Below, piece by piece: positions 3,688-60,680 of a stretch of DNA of 64,000 bases; positions within the stretch are counted from its first letter, which is position 1, and each line of letters opens with the position of its first letter. The notes below the pieces were generated by a model that saw only the letters and a program-made list of their open reading frames with translations, was not told the DNA's origin and ran no database searches. Both the position numbers and the translations under genes were made by a program. The stretch is from NCBI GenBank assembly GCA_947589425.1, contig CANQAV010000002.1, forward strand, positions 62,001 through 126,000, given 5' to 3'. The stretch is from Candidatus Gastranaerophilales bacterium (lineage in GTDB: Bacteria > Cyanobacteriota > Vampirovibrionia > Gastranaerophilales > Gastranaerophilaceae).

Positions 3688-4583
3688 TTTATACCTTCTA
3701 AAAATTCGCTGTTCTCAAGTTTTTCCAGATTATCAAGCGCAAGAGAAAGCAAGTCTTTAAACTTTTCTACATCACGTTTTGGAACTAATACTTTACATAA
3801 AACATCATATCTTAAAAGACGTTTAAATAAAAGTTCTTTATCTTCCTGGGCAGATGCCACAACAATTGTTTTTTTCGTAAAATCAACAACTCTTTCGTCA
3901 TCTCTTAACAGATAGGATTTAACAAGCCTTCCCATAAGCTCAAAAACGGTTTCTTTTTTATGTACAAATATTTTATTTTCCTCAAGCGGAGCAATCTTAT
4001 TAATTTTTTCAATCGGAACAGATATTTCTTTATCGGTTTGTTTGTTAAGAAAAATTATTTTTAAACCGTTGTCAGACCAATCAACTCTCAGGGGCATAAG
4101 AGCAATATCTTGTTTTTCTTTTAAAATTGAAACGGATAATAAGGTTTCGGTTTCAATATACTCTTGAATTGCGCTGATTTTGTCGCTGTATGTATTATAA
4201 GATGATATTTTTTTAAAATAGGAAGATTTATTGTAAACCGTATTTTTATTTTTTTCGTTTGAAAGCAATAAAATATCTTTTAGCGCAAATCCTACCTCTT
4301 TATTCCTTTTAAGAGACAAAAAAGAATTTGCCAGAAAAATTAAATAAGCCAGCGCCCCCGTTTCACAGTCAGTGTAATTTATAACTCTTTTATAGTTGTC
4401 AATATAATAAACACCTCTTTTTTTGCGAATTTTTATTCCGGATTTTTTTATAAAGAAAAGATGTTTTTGAAATGTTGCCGGCTGTATATTTAGGGTGCTC
4501 AAAATTTCCTGTTTTGTACAAGGATAGTTATAAATCATATCAATCATTTTAAGCGCATTTTTACGGATCGAGTTCTCTTTCAT
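3684..4583 (-). CDS. HTH/WYL-type transcriptional regulator, second of a tandem pair
   Basis: A 299-residue predicted regulator. The first ~60 residues form a winged helix-turn-helix (TKQEILSTLNIQPATFQKHL). The middle (about 150-205, ending ISVPIEKINKI) matches the WYL ligand-sensing fold but has lost the literal W-Y-L residues. The C-terminal ~80 residues resemble the WCX extension. WYL regulators sense nucleic acids or nucleotides; in PafBC-type pairs two WYL proteins act together after DNA damage. It overlaps the upstream WYL gene by 23 bases and is co-transcribed with it. The family call rests on domain order and is less certain than for its partner. Confidence 0.68.
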   Translation of the reverse strand: MKENSIRKNALKMIDMIYNYPCTKQEILSTLNIQPATFQKHLFFIKKSGIKIRKKRGVYYIDNYKRVINYTDCETGALAYLIFLANSFLSLKRNKEVGFALKDILLLSNEKNKNTVYNKSSYFKKISSYNTYSDKISAIQEYIETETLLSVSILKEKQDIALMPLRVDWSDNGLKIIFLNKQTDKEISVPIEKINKIAPLEENKIFVHKKETVFELMGRLVKSYLLRDDERVVDFTKKTIVVASAQEDKELLFKRLLRYDVLCKVLVPKRDVEKFKDLLSLALDNLEKLENSEFLEGIK

Positions 4584-5469
4584 ACATATCCTTCATAATT
4601 TCAAGCTTTTCTTTTACCTGATTTTTTATATTCAAATCTGAAATATAATATAAATCAGGACAAAAATACAAAAGTCTTTGAATTACATAAAAATTATCAT
4701 CTCTTAATCTTTGTATATAAGCATATTTATCATCAAGTTTAAGAAGGCTTTCGCTTTCATCAAGGGTGGTATTTTCGTATGCTTCCTTTGAAATAACATA
4801 GGTTAAAATATCCGCATTTACTTCAAACATAACTTTTCTTCTTATTACTTTTTTAATCATAAAAATTTTATCAACGGCAATGTGGGAGAAAAACATTCCG
4901 TTCCCCAAAATTCCATGCAGATATAATTTGTTTTTATGGGTTGCAACTTTTAAATAATCAACATGCATTTGAATAAGTTTAAAACCTTGTCCGGGAACAA
5001 AATATTCAAGCAATAAGATGTCTTTTGTCTTACAATGCTCCTCAAGCCTTTGCACAACATACCAATTAAGGGAAGAATAATAGCCAAAATCAAAAAGTCT
5101 TTCTTTAATATCCTTATCGGGCGCCAGAACGGAAAGTTTATAAAACAATCTCATAAATTGTCTTATCATATTATAATCTTTTTGAAGAAATAAAAGTCTT
5201 TTAACTTCGTCAAGTGCGCTAAGTTCTTCATCAGACAATCTTAAAAAACTTTTTTTGGGTCTTAAGGTATAAAGATTTTCTCCTTTTTGCTTTGTTATAT
5301 CAAAACTAAATCCGTTTTCTTCGAGTTTTTTAACGTATGAATTAATAGTGGGTCTGTTTATATCAAAGCCCAGGGAAGCATATTTTTCTACAATTTCCTT
5401 TTTTGTCAGGGGCTTCTTTAAAAGGAAACTTAAAAGCAATAAAATTTTATATGTACTTGTATAGTGCAT
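4561..5469 (-). CDS. HTH/WYL-type transcriptional regulator, first of a tandem pair
   Basis: A 302-residue regulator with an N-terminal winged HTH (about 8-55, KKEIVEKYASLGFDINRPTI) and a central WYL-like domain whose signature region reads KLYLHGILG, followed by FFSHIAVDKIFMI in place of the usual basic dRI strand. The C-terminus extends the fold as in YafY/PafB-type proteins. It heads a three-gene minus-strand operon and is divergent from the ribosomal protein S1 gene across 133 bases. A near-consensus promoter lies just upstream. What it senses and controls is not visible here. Adjacent repair genes (helicase, nuclease, ogt) make a DNA-damage role plausible but unproven. Confidence 0.75.
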   Translation of the reverse strand: MHYTSTYKILLLLSFLLKKPLTKKEIVEKYASLGFDINRPTINSYVKKLEENGFSFDITKQKGENLYTLRPKKSFLRLSDEELSALDEVKRLLFLQKDYNMIRQFMRLFYKLSVLAPDKDIKERLFDFGYYSSLNWYVVQRLEEHCKTKDILLLEYFVPGQGFKLIQMHVDYLKVATHKNKLYLHGILGNGMFFSHIAVDKIFMIKKVIRRKVMFEVNADILTYVISKEAYENTTLDESESLLKLDDKYAYIQRLRDDNFYVIQRLLYFCPDLYYISDLNIKNQVKEKLEIMKDMYERELDP

Positions 5470-5486: not shown

Positions 5487-5515
5487 ATTATAACTTGAAA
5501 GCTTTATTCGTACAA
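5487..5515 (-). promoter_or_regulatory. Predicted sigma-70 promoter of the WYL operon
   Basis: On the minus strand TTGTAC (5515-5510) and TATAAT (5492-5487) are separated by exactly 17 bases. Transcription would start about 11 bases upstream of the ATG at 5469, giving a very short leader. Confidence 0.7.
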
Positions 5516-5540
5516 ATGTAGTAAATTATGGGGAAAATAA

Positions 5541-5567
5541 TTGAATTTATTGAAAAAATACTATAAT
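5541..5567 (+). promoter_or_regulatory. Possible promoter of the S1 gene
   Basis: TTGAAT (5541-5546) and a perfect TATAAT (5562-5567) on the plus strand, with a short 15-base spacer. It would give a leader of about 30 bases ahead of the chosen start at 5603. Confidence 0.45.
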
Positions 5568-5602
5568 TAAGATTATTGATACAATGTGCATTGGAGTTTT
5601 TA

Positions 5603-56079: not shown

Positions 56080-56571
56080 TTAGCTCGGATTATCGCCTGA
56101 AATTTTTACACCTTTAACAATATAGTTTGCGCTGTCTTTTCTTATAAGTTTATTGTTCGCATCATATCTTTCAACAATAAAATTGTCCCTTCCCGAAAAA
56201 TTGTTTCCTTCAAGAACAAATTCCACCGTTTCTTTATAGATTATTTTTTTATTTCCTTCTTTAACGGTTTTTTCTCTTGAAAATTTTAAGGTTTTTCCGT
56301 CTTTATTTTTATCTTTTATTTGAATTTGAGAAACAGCTCCGCTTTCAATATTTTCTAAGGTAAGAATATTCCCGTATCCCGAGAGAGTCCAAACATCCCT
56401 GCTTTCAAAGTTAAAGACTTCGGGGTTATTAGTATCGGACAATTTTGAAATTACACCCCATGAGCCAAAAAAGCCGTTTGGAATATAATCTTCGCTGATT
56501 GTCCCTTTTAATACCTGTGAATTTGCGAATAAACTCAAAAAACAGATTAAAATTAATATAATTTTTTTCAT
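56080..56571 (-). CDS. Exported protein of unknown function
   Basis: A 163-residue protein with an N-terminal signal peptide (MKKIILILICFLSLFANSQ). The mature part is beta-strand rich, about 140 residues, with aromatic GSWGVIS and DVWTLSGYGN segments suggesting a small barrel or lipocalin-like sandwich, an inference only. No lipobox cysteine. It lies 150 bases beyond acpP on the same strand, with its own start and no visible terminator between. Family unknown. Confidence 0.72.
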   Translation of the reverse strand: MKKIILILICFLSLFANSQVLKGTISEDYIPNGFFGSWGVISKLSDTNNPEVFNFESRDVWTLSGYGNILTLENIESGAVSQIQIKDKNKDGKTLKFSREKTVKEGNKKIIYKETVEFVLEGNNFSGRDNFIVERYDANNKLIRKDSANYIVKGVKISGDNPS

Positions 56572-56626: not shown

Positions 56627-56794
56627 TGTTAAAATAGTCTAAAATTGAATAAACAGGAAATCAAAGTGAAATTCTTTGGCTGGAGCGCAACCGTATAGTC
56701 GGAATACTGTATTTGTCTTTTAAAACGAATTCTTTTAAAAGGCTCTTTATGTATTTATGCGTCTTTTAAGCCGAAGTACATAAAGGATAAAAGA
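56627..56794 (+). promoter_or_regulatory. Structured 5' leader with 10-residue uORF and ribosome-site hairpin
   Basis: An extended -10 (TGTTAAAAT, 56627-56635) predicts transcription from about 56642. A short reading frame, GTG 56666 to TAG 56698, has AGGAAA upstream and would encode ten residues (start read as Met: MKFFGWSATV). Hairpin 1 is CTTTTAAAA / TTTTAAAAG (56717-56725, 56733-56741). Hairpin 2, CTTTATGTA / TACATAAAG (56745-56753, 56777-56785), buries the ribosome site AAAGGA (56782-56786) of the next gene. TTAAAAG (56735-56741) can instead pair with CTTTTAA (56763-56769), so the folds compete. Interpretation as a switch is inference. Confidence 0.55.
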
Positions 56795-57475
56795 TTGTCG
56801 GCTCCGATTTTTCAAAATGTTCAAAATGCCAACAAATGCCCCCATGGTTTTCCCGTTGGAGCATGCCCCATTTGTAATTCCGTAGGCGGTGTTTCAAGGG
56901 ATAAAAATAAACCCAGAGTTAAAGGGGAGATGAGCTATAATGAATGCATGGCTGTTTGGCTTAAAATGCAGGCTCAAAAAGAAGCAAAGCTTCAAGCCCA
57001 AAAAGACAGGCTTGAGAAGATGCACCAAAGCATCCTTGAAAATCGTGTGCTTTTGAGTTTTGAAAAAATTAAGAAAAATATTGTTGAATTTAATCAAAAA
57101 ATAAATCAGCTTCCCCTTTTTATAAAAATCCCCGTAAAAATAGTTTTTTCAATAGTTTTAGCTCCGATAAATTTAATTTTAAACACTTTTTATGCAACAA
57201 AAAATATTCAGCAGTTTTTTCAAAACATAACTAAATTTATTGCCTCAATCAGCGAAAAAATGGCAATGGTTTTAGGGGAAATCAAGAATTTTATTGATAG
57301 TTTTGTTATAAAAAAATCCAAAAAAATTCTTAAAACCCTGCTCAATTTGTTTTTGGAAAACAACGAAAACAATGACGAACAACAAGAAAACAAAACTTTT
57401 ACAGAGAAAAAATTAAAAAATATTTTAAGAAAAATTCAAATGCTGCTTGAAAAAAATAGCAAGGAAGATGAATAA
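56795..57475 (+). CDS. Unknown protein with N-terminal Cys/His metal motif and helical C-terminus
   Basis: 226 residues from a TTG start, chosen because AAAGGA lies about 9 bases upstream and the cysteine motif begins soon after. CPHGFPVGACPICNSVGG (Cys15, His17, Cys24, Cys27) looks like a small zinc knuckle. The rest is lysine/glutamine-rich and helical; a hydrophobic stretch (PLFIKIPVKIVFSIVLAPINLIL, near 105-127) could be a re-entrant or single membrane helix. The C-terminal ~50 residues are a charged coiled coil. Not recognised. Its stop overlaps the next start (TAATG), so the two are co-translated. Confidence 0.78.
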   Translation: MSAPIFQNVQNANKCPHGFPVGACPICNSVGGVSRDKNKPRVKGEMSYNECMAVWLKMQAQKEAKLQAQKDRLEKMHQSILENRVLLSFEKIKKNIVEFNQKINQLPLFIKIPVKIVFSIVLAPINLILNTFYATKNIQQFFQNITKFIASISEKMAMVLGEIKNFIDSFVIKKSKKILKTLLNLFLENNENNDEQQENKTFTEKKLKNILRKIQMLLEKNSKEDE

Positions 57476-58983
57476 TGACCTCATTCGAGTTATTCAGAAA
57501 AAAAACAAATCCTTATGTCCAATCCGGTATAAATCCTTATAATACCTCTTTAAAGAACAAACAAAACAATGAAAACAATACATTAAAAGGGGTTTTATTA
57601 AATGCCCATATTAAAAAACAGCCTCAAGAAGAAAACCTTGATGATTTTGATAAAATTTCACAGGGGCTTTTAATACCTCAAAATCCCCAAGAAAATGTTT
57701 CAAATTTAACACCCCTAAAAGATGATTTCGATTATAAAAAAATTTTAAAACCCGCAGTAATTTTGACATCTTTCATCGTTGCAATGACGGCGGGAATAAG
57801 TATTGCAATGAAAAAATATTCAAATGTTTTAGCTTCAAAAAATGACCTTGTACGCCCCGGAGATTTGGCAAGAAACATAAATATCCTTGAAGAGCCCCAT
57901 TTTGCAATGTATCGTGCCCTAAGAAATCCTAATGCGAAAAATGTTCTCGGGCTTTTGGGCGTTGCCTTGATGAGCGCTTTTACTTTGACTGCGAAAAATT
58001 TTGTCGACGGTATAAAAGAAATATGGATTAAAAAGCGAAATTGCGATATAGAGCATGATCTTCAACAAAATTTAATTCAAGTTGAAACAGATGTATTTTC
58101 GGGCAAATTAAAAATCGTAAATACCCTTCTTAAAGACAGTTCAAACTATTTTAAATCCTCTCTTAAAGAAGATACAAAAGATATAGATTTTAAAAATTTT
58201 CTCTCTTTTAAAGGAGAGGAGAAAGAGGATGAGAAAGATAAAAAAAATAACAAAATACCGTATATAATCGGGGGAGTCGGAGCTTTTTGCGCAATCGGCT
58301 TTATGCTGTTTAAAAATTATCAAAAAACCGTGAAAAATCTTGATACATTTACAAAAAAATTTCAAGACAGCGAAATCAGGGCAAAAATGGAAAATGCTCT
58401 CAATGAAACCGACAAAGCGAAAGCAATTAAAGAACTTGTTGATTTATTAAAAGTAATTAACGCAAAAGAAGATACCATGAGAGAAAAACTATCTTCAATT
58501 AAAGGAATTGAACCCGATGAAATTGAAAGCGCAATAAAAGCAATTAAAGAAGCTCAAATTTATGTTTCCGCTCCCGAGGCTCTGGGAGGTATAAGCGAAA
58601 AAATTCAATATTATTGTTATATAAACGAAGAAAGAGGACATCTTTATAACTGGATTTTAAATCCGGAAAATAAATTTAATAAATATCTTTTCTTGTGCTT
58701 CAGTGCAATAAGTTCAATAGGCTATCTTTCAAAAACTGCCGTTGATGCTTTTAAAACGACTGCGGTTAACAGGGAAAACTCAAAAAGCGAGCTTAATTTA
58801 AGAAAAAGGCTTGTCCAAGTTGAATTGAATAATTTTAAAACAAAGAAACTAAGCGCAATTAACCCTCTAATTGATAACTTTAATTATCAAAAACAAAAAG
58901 GAGCTTCTAAGAGCGAGTTAAAATCGCTGGCGGAAAATATTTTAATTGAAATTAAAAACGGTCCGCCGTATATTTATTCTTAA
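57475..58983 (+). CDS. Unknown membrane protein built from an internal duplication
   Basis: 502 residues. Polar N-terminus (1-88), then two related halves. Each has a membrane helix (about 90-112; 262-278), an EE-H-Y-L-NP motif (about 139-153; 384-398), a second helix (about 156-172; 403-419) and a conserved K-F/V-D-IK...LVQVE-coil (174-219; 420-466). Residues 139-219 align with 384-466. I do not recognise the family. The start overlaps the previous stop by one base; the two encoded proteins probably act together. The N-terminal segment has several Asn-Pro-Tyr repeats. Confidence 0.8.
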   Translation: MTSFELFRKKTNPYVQSGINPYNTSLKNKQNNENNTLKGVLLNAHIKKQPQEENLDDFDKISQGLLIPQNPQENVSNLTPLKDDFDYKKILKPAVILTSFIVAMTAGISIAMKKYSNVLASKNDLVRPGDLARNINILEEPHFAMYRALRNPNAKNVLGLLGVALMSAFTLTAKNFVDGIKEIWIKKRNCDIEHDLQQNLIQVETDVFSGKLKIVNTLLKDSSNYFKSSLKEDTKDIDFKNFLSFKGEEKEDEKDKKNNKIPYIIGGVGAFCAIGFMLFKNYQKTVKNLDTFTKKFQDSEIRAKMENALNETDKAKAIKELVDLLKVINAKEDTMREKLSSIKGIEPDEIESAIKAIKEAQIYVSAPEALGGISEKIQYYCYINEERGHLYNWILNPENKFNKYLFLCFSAISSIGYLSKTAVDAFKTTAVNRENSKSELNLRKRLVQVELNNFKTKKLSAINPLIDNFNYQKQKGASKSELKSLAENILIEIKNGPPYIYS

Positions 58984-59084: not shown

Positions 59085-60680
59085 ATGACAGACCAAGAAA
59101 ATACAATAGCATTAGAAAATGACGTACATCATCTTAGCATGATGTTTAAAATAAGCACCATTGCCAATCAAATTGATGATGTTTATGAGCTTTTGGAAAA
59201 ACTAAAAGAACATTGCTCAAAAATGATAAACTCAGAGGATATAACATTTTATCTTCTGGAAAAACAATATTTTAAATGTATGTCATCAGATATTACAAGA
59301 AATAATGAATTTTTTGAATATGAAGAAGGCAATGCACCTTTTTGGGAGCTTCTTCACAGTAAAAAATTAATTAAAGTTAATGAAGAATTTAATCAAAATA
59401 TTTTTAAAAATTTTCTCGGCGCCAACAAACTGACAGGACTTGACCCTACACATTTAAGAGTATTCTTTAACAATCAAGCGCCCGTTTGTTTCTGTTTTAT
59501 CAGGGAAAATTCTTCAAATCCGATTGATGATTCGACTTACAGAAATCTTAATTTTATTTTTGATTATATTGAGCCCATAATTGTAAAACTTCAAAAGAAA
59601 ATTAAGAAAGATGAAGAAATAGCTCAGCTTCAAAAGTCATTGCATAATATTTCAATTTTATACAATATTTCTCAAGCAGTTAATTTTATAGATGACCTTA
59701 AAAGGCTCTTGCAGGTTATAATGCAAAAAGCGCTTGGTACGCTTGATGCCGAAAAAGGGTCAATTATGCTATACGATTATGCCGATAATGCCCTGCAAGT
59801 TAGAATTGTATCAGGTTTACAGGATAAGAAACTTGAAGATGCAATAAATAACGGCGGAGTACAATGTGCTAAAATCGGAGTCGGAGAAGGCATAGCAGGC
59901 ACGGTATTTTTGGAGAAAAAGCCTATTATTACAAATTTAGGCTCAGCTGACCCCCGTTTTATTGTTAAAGAAGTATTGTCCAATACAAATTCGCTCCTTT
60001 GTGTTCCCTTGATTGTTAAAGGCGAAGTAATAGGAGTTATCAATATTACAAACAAAAAGAACAATAAGTTGTTCAATCAAAAAGATTTGGAATTTATTAC
60101 GTCTTTAGCTAATCAGGTTGCAATTGCAATTGATAACGCTAAATTATACGAATTTGCAACAAAAGACGGCATGACAAAATTATATATCTATCGTCATTTT
60201 ATAACCTTGTTGGAAAATGAAATAAGACGTTGTCAAAGATATAACAGAAATATGTCGTTAATTATGATGGATATTGATAACTTTAAAAGAATTAATGACA
60301 CATACGGACACTTAACAGGTGATGCAATTTTGAAGAACTTTGCCTCAGTTCTTCAAGAAACAATCAGAACAATTGATGTACCCGCAAGATACGGCGGTGA
60401 AGAATTTGTTGTAATTTTGCCCGAAACAAACAAAAATGATGCTGTTGCAATTGCGGAACGTATAAGAAAAAATATAGAAAAAATAGTGGTTAAAGTCGGA
60501 AATAACGACGAAATTTCTCCCACTGTGTCTGTCGGTATTGCACAATACGCAACTGACGGACAAGAAGCAAAAGAGCTTATTAACGCCGCTGATACCGCCT
60601 TATATTTTTCAAAACATAACGGAAAAAATATGACTGCAATTTATGAAGCGGAAGGATGCCGCAAGGTTGAAAAACAATAA
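59085..60680 (+). CDS. GAF-domain diguanylate cyclase
   Basis: 531 residues: a degenerate GAF-like N-terminal domain (about 10-175), a clear GAF domain (about 190-355; GVGEGIAGTVFLEKKPIITNLG, NLANQVAIAIDNAKLYEFA) and a C-terminal GGDEF domain. The active-site motif is GGEEF (about 437-441), with a product-inhibition I-site RTID five residues upstream and the DxxxxGH DNFKRINDTYGH core. It should make c-di-GMP and be feedback-inhibited, with GAF sensing of an unknown ligand. With CdaA it is the second cyclic-dinucleotide synthase in the window. No membrane helix, so cytoplasmic. Confidence 0.95.
   Translation: MTDQENTIALENDVHHLSMMFKISTIANQIDDVYELLEKLKEHCSKMINSEDITFYLLEKQYFKCMSSDITRNNEFFEYEEGNAPFWELLHSKKLIKVNEEFNQNIFKNFLGANKLTGLDPTHLRVFFNNQAPVCFCFIRENSSNPIDDSTYRNLNFIFDYIEPIIVKLQKKIKKDEEIAQLQKSLHNISILYNISQAVNFIDDLKRLLQVIMQKALGTLDAEKGSIMLYDYADNALQVRIVSGLQDKKLEDAINNGGVQCAKIGVGEGIAGTVFLEKKPIITNLGSADPRFIVKEVLSNTNSLLCVPLIVKGEVIGVINITNKKNNKLFNQKDLEFITSLANQVAIAIDNAKLYEFATKDGMTKLYIYRHFITLLENEIRRCQRYNRNMSLIMMDIDNFKRINDTYGHLTGDAILKNFASVLQETIRTIDVPARYGGEEFVVILPETNKNDAVAIAERIRKNIEKIVVKVGNNDEISPTVSVGIAQYATDGQEAKELINAADTALYFSKHNGKNMTAIYEAEGCRKVEKQ

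Follow-up and report, generated by a model that had tools for sequence, protein, structure and literature searches.

A cobalamin-riboswitch operon of undescribed genes in Gastranaerophilales and its possible part in corrinoid acquisition

The window analyzed here, a stretch of 64,000 nucleotides from a Candidatus Gastranaerophilales bacterium (contig CANQAV010000002.1), contains two genes, termed A and B, behind a structured leader. Gene A (56795-57475, + strand, 226 AA) starts with a TTG codon at 56795, preceded by the Shine-Dalgarno sequence AAAGGA at 56782-56787, and gene B (57475-58983, + strand, 502 AA) starts with ATG at 57475. The overlapping stop and start noted in a preliminary description of this DNA were found as described; in the junction TAATG the gene A stop and the gene B start codon have one base in common.

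The N-terminal part of the gene A product carries a zinc-knuckle-like motif, CPHGFPVGACPIC (56837-56875, + strand). It follows the pattern C15-x-H17-x6-C24-x2-C27 exactly, and a scan of all six frames revealed no other CxHx6CxxC in the 64-kb window. Residues C15, P16, H17, G18, C24, P25 and C27 were unchanged in 24 of 24 diverse sequences. The arrangement is that of a zinc knuckle, with metal binding putative. The tail of the protein, described earlier as a coiled coil, is indeed built of long helices in the predicted structure (mean pLDDT 68.6) and has one moderate hydrophobic stretch near residue 116.

Gene B had been described as encoding a multi-pass membrane protein, and its sequence agrees: four hydropathy peaks, near residues 103, 163, 270 and 414, indicate that it is a membrane protein. 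The protein consists of two homologous halves. Profiles of the N-terminal and C-terminal half aligned over 83 columns with an hhalign probability of 97.5 and an E-value of 7e-12, vs. E-values of 0.018 or worse for reversed and permuted controls. The AlphaFold model (pLDDT 63.7) shows a helix, a short helix and a helix of about 75 residues, and this layout occurs twice. We found no known transporter or ATPase signature in gene B, which has only four hydrophobic segments.

The leader, already noted as structured in the preliminary description, is composed of an AdoCbl-II (RF01689) cobalamin riboswitch aptamer (56637-56717, + strand) and two predicted hairpins. The aptamer scored 47.3 bits in Rfam (gathering score 36.5) and is the one RF01689 match in the source genome, where RF00174 gave 0 matches. 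Hairpin 1 (56715-56743, + strand; 11 pairs in RNA folding) lies 3′ of the aptamer. Hairpin 2 (56745-56785, + strand), likewise predicted by RNA folding, masks the AAAG of AAAGGA and is the presumed translation-level expression platform. The fold of 56715-56800 gave a z-score of -4.58, and none of 200 shuffles was equally stable. As hairpin 2 overlaps part of the Shine-Dalgarno sequence, control at the level of translation is likely. A scan for promoter and terminator patterns around the operon gave no excess over shuffled sequences. A weak match to the leader model elsewhere in the window (5509-5573, + strand; 22.7 bits, E 0.029, GC 0.2) is probably due to chance.

For a comparative analysis of the leader, a sequence pattern caught 49 of 62 A loci and missed 13. 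The covariation alignment comprised 43 of these 49 leaders, with four (L101, L083, L126, L131) left out owing to insertions or length and two (L115, L124) because the list was shortened. Across the alignment the P4 helix was 98.3% paired, and three of its four pairs vary on both sides; in the P5 helix this is true of one of three pairs, and the outermost aptamer helix was poorly paired (56%). Covariation over the whole structure was 0.323, vs. a mean of 0.164 for shuffled alignments (0/500) and a maximum of 0.205 for slid ones. By its score, its helix covariation and the position of its other copies 5′ of B12-related genes, the leader belongs to RF01689, and cobamide binding by it is putative. 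At four loci (L029, L030, L027 and L101, the last in genome G061) the aptamer carries an inserted hairpin after CCGT. Pairing of L5 with the downstream leader scored 12.29 for a leader's own L5 and 12.02 for swapped ones, and 64 of 500 permutations were as good (47 of the 49 leaders, L083 and L130 having been dropped by the pattern). Perfect L5 complements do lie downstream in several leaders (L109, L121, L084), yet we do not claim this pairing, as a leader's own L5 was not clearly better than a swapped one. The established direction of control by riboswitches of the AdoCbl-II type is repression by B12, which is the direction we expect here. Activation by a corrinoid riboswitch has also been reported (PMC10653944).

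Other copies of the riboswitch point to the physiology in which the operon takes part. Twenty more RF01689 copies in relatives stand before nrdD-nrdG (12), btu genes (5), metE (1), the gene of a B12-binding radical SAM protein (1) and a porin-like gene (1). The genes behind four copies (L049, L051, L055, L063) were HMM-checked, which identified NrdD and NrdG, MetE, the radical SAM protein, and BtuC- and BtuF-like proteins alongside a TonB receptor and an ABC ATPase, the btu proteins being under NCBIfam equivalog cut-offs; the remaining genes were named by eye. The porin-like gene, of 473 AA (copy at about 419-514 of L064, genome G004), is possibly another B12-regulated outer-membrane gene. In genomes G164, G043 and G021 the operon, which there includes a third gene, C, is divergent from an aptamer and nrdD (NrdD HMM-checked in one of the three). 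With nrdD, btuBCDF and metE under RF01689 copies in the order, a B12 economy is indicated. The stress- or envelope-linked module that the preliminary description had suggested is not supported, the leader being a B12 riboswitch whose other copies control these genes.

We examined 192 genomes of the order and found A in 175, B in 174, both in 173 and neither in 16, almost always with one match each per genome; such co-occurrence is far beyond chance and upholds the linkage of the two genes. A match to RF01689 was present in 177 of the 192 genomes, and in 145 of them it exceeded the gathering score. The 43 leaders were also used to build an aptamer model, which placed the aptamer upstream of A and in its orientation in 66 of the 68 sources searched, many of them part of its training set, and gave no match upstream of A in the other two (L103, L127). 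This model also recovered the switch in G061, G123 and G006 (L101, L102, L096), where Rfam's fast search had missed it. Named relatives are Candidatus Gastranaerophilales MAGs and one Cyanobacteria SIG27. When a sample of the phylum was searched, gene B matched in 124 of 292 genomes; among the matches listed all were within the order except G228, and this one is marginal (E 7e-4, profile positions 227-328).

The proposal of an undescribed two-gene system held for A and B as a linked pair, but it missed gene C, which is present in most of the order. C encodes about 150-190 AA and lies directly 3′ of B in most genera. Clustering of neighbors found it at 33 of 42 loci, and it occurs in 157 of the 192 genomes but in 0 of the 11 of the source genome's genus. 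Its strongest conserved blocks are around LAGIYRK, PDAFGPL and EEIGGAI. At one locus (L100, genome G186), which has no B match, two C copies stand side by side after A (3901-5000, in A orientation); this genome has three gene C matches in total. Upstream of A in the window, a divergent gene (56080-56571, - strand) encodes 163 AA that begin like a signal peptide; the protein has no Pfam or NCBIfam match and, among the 42 loci, was found near A-B only at the three of the source genus. The GAF-GGDEF diguanylate cyclase gene immediately 3′ of B (59085-60680, + strand) is a non-recurrent neighbor among the 42 loci.

The statement that the proteins match no known family was borne out, and it extends to C. 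Searches of A, B and C against Pfam, NCBIfam, PHROGs and PADLOC returned no convincing match, and none that passed a curated cut-off in those libraries that define one. FecCD, ABC ATPase, periplasmic-binding and TonB domains were found neither in A, B and C of the window and the examples nor in 24 A and 24 B sequences. Eight of the 24 A sequences touched Baculo_PEP_C (best E 1.8e-5), which we read as a chance helical match, and PADLOC gave no support for a defense system. Profiles of PDB sequences yielded nothing convincing, the best for A being a designed helical protein (E 0.007). The A and B models, of low confidence (pLDDT 68.6 and 63.7), had no Foldseek match at E 0.001 or better, and the best VIA-align Z for gene B, 8.8, is inside the range which that tool expects for long helices. 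In the open papers on Gastranaerophilales, Vampirovibrionia or Melainabacteria with riboswitch, cobalamin or B12, including PMC4040986, PMC3787301 and PMC4914512, we found no account of the operon in the portions of text consulted.

The occurrence of A and B was compared with markers of B12 need, synthesis and uptake. The B12-dependent ribonucleotide reductase NrdJ requires adenosylcobalamin, and CbiC is a marker for corrin synthesis. NrdJ was scored present in 139 of the 192 genomes, with 136 over the cut-off and split or partial genes below it accepted in G014, G017 and G136; eleven weak matches (ten of the source genus and G117) were scored absent. A 448-AA frame with an NrdJ-like match in the source genus (best E 5e-21, G097) was too short for NrdJ and also scored absent. 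QueG was rejected as a B12 client, with no match over the cut-off in the 192 genomes. CbiC was found in three of 163 genomes, a subset taken to be G000-G162, and all three (G002, G004, G019) are without A and B. Strong BtuC was present in 15 of 192 genomes; weak matches in G002, G015 and G026 were scored absent, that in G015 being just over the Pfam cut-off.

Of 128 genomes with NrdJ and neither CbiC nor BtuC, 127 have A/B, and the exception is G101. NrdJ occurs without A and B in six genomes, three with CbiC, two with BtuC and one, again G101, with neither. Among the 16 genomes that have neither A nor B, three have CbiC, three have BtuC, and nine of the other ten are without NrdJ. In two genera, g17 and g13, the genomes that have lost A/B are also without NrdJ. 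As the genomes share ancestry, none of these counts are independent trials. BtuC and A/B are found together in 12 genomes, so A/B is no simple substitute for BtuCDF. A total of 53 genomes are without NrdJ, and 43 of these retain A/B, including the source genome and its entire genus. In the source genome we looked for NrdJ, QueG and PF02310 and found no clear B12-dependent enzyme, the PF02310 match being weak (E 4.7e-5). Published accounts do not list Melainabacteria among B12 makers, as far as the consulted parts go: the main text of PMC3787301 (eLife 2013, on Melainabacteria) lists pathways for B2, B3, B7, B9 and B5 and is silent on B12 or cobalamin, and in a table of PMC4914512 on gut MAGs, whose columns are without labels, B12 is absent in every column, one of them queried.

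Taken together, the locus is almost certainly a B12-riboswitch operon of undescribed genes, and B12 control of the operon is well supported. The best explanation of the data is that riboswitch-A-B, or A-B-C in most of the order, constitutes the main B12-regulated operon of Gastranaerophilales. Its job probably concerns corrinoids, whether by acquisition or by intracellular handling. As A/B is kept by nearly all members that apparently need B12 and do not make it, it may be an undescribed route of B12 acquisition; we give roughly even chances to riboswitch-A-B(-C) being a lineage-specific, B12-regulated membrane module for corrinoid acquisition. In such a module, low intracellular B12 would let the leader permit translation of A and B. 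B, with its duplicated two-segment module, would be the membrane part, in the inner membrane, and its partner subunits would be A, which has a metal-type knuckle and amphipathic helices, and C, which is helical and at most HEAT-like. At sufficient B12 the aptamer would fold and turn translation of A and B off. More tentatively, A-B-C could be an importer of a new kind, unrelated to BtuFCD, ECF or BtuM and arisen in Gastranaerophilales, with B as the carrier and the knuckle of A engaged in ligand or subunit binding.

The regulon and the phyletic evidence would also fit if A-B(-C) were a factor for intracellular handling or salvage of corrinoids (a chaperone, a remodeling factor or a membrane-tethered store) and uptake went via an unrecognized general transporter. 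The presence of A/B beside BtuC, the metal-type knuckle of A, and a B protein with few hydrophobic segments and long helices agree with such a role. No enzyme or corrinoid-binding domain was recognized in A, B or C, however, and a conserved membrane protein is central to the operon; we regard a handling factor as somewhat unlikely. That riboswitch copies also govern the B12-independent isoenzymes nrdD and metE, and that A/B persists in the 43 NrdJ-less genomes, would fit an operon that served a response to B12 limitation not about B12 itself. It might alter the envelope, for instance, or stand in for a B12-dependent process, a reading in keeping with the preliminary description. Yet no catalytic domain was recognized, and the corrin-synthesis genomes found are without A/B (3/3), a pattern not especially expected of a stand-in; we hold such a response to be improbable.

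The aptamer ligand might also have been lost or changed in the source genus, with A-B fulfilling an unrelated housekeeping function. Apart from this aptamer, the source genome has neither an RF01689 nor an RF00174 match; it also has no clear B12-dependent enzyme, and its L5 (GAGCGCA) was seen once among the 47 leaders. Against this, G000 has an aptamer with an intact core that scores above the gathering threshold, and all 11 genomes of the genus retain an RF01689 match; we hold a changed ligand to be very improbable.

The module for corrinoid acquisition that we favor can be set against known B12 systems. BtuB-BtuFCD, an ABC importer, is likewise a membrane system under B12-riboswitch control in the order, and in G189 and G157 btuBCDF adjoins A-B-C divergently, with a second aptamer before btuB (E 0.0026 and 0.013). 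It differs in its FecCD, ABC ATPase, periplasmic-binding and TonB domains, which A, B and C do not have, and most A/B genomes are without BtuC. BtuM and ECF-CbrT, which are small and have about six segments, are B12 routes across the inner membrane besides BtuCD; gene B, with 502 AA, four segments and an internal duplication, is set apart from them as they are generally described. The leader itself is over the gathering threshold of the AdoCbl-II family, whereas the target genes here are undescribed and its ligand and direction of control are putative. A precedent for additional proteins of B12 loci in gut bacteria that had no known function at first and proved to bind B12 directly comes, in the sections consulted, from gut Bacteroides with BtuG and BtuH (PMC6143338, PMC8941943) and from the DUF4465 family (PMC13398666). 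BtuG proteins are surface lipoproteins, in contrast to the multi-segment membrane protein, knuckle protein and C described here, which have no recognized relatives.

Gut bacteria compete for B12, and the B12 source of most Gastranaerophilales is unexplained by the CbiC and BtuC markers searched. The riboswitch marks three undescribed protein families as candidates for B12 acquisition. If A-B-C is indeed a new importer, the B12 auxotrophs of Gastranaerophilales in animal guts would take up cobamides through it.
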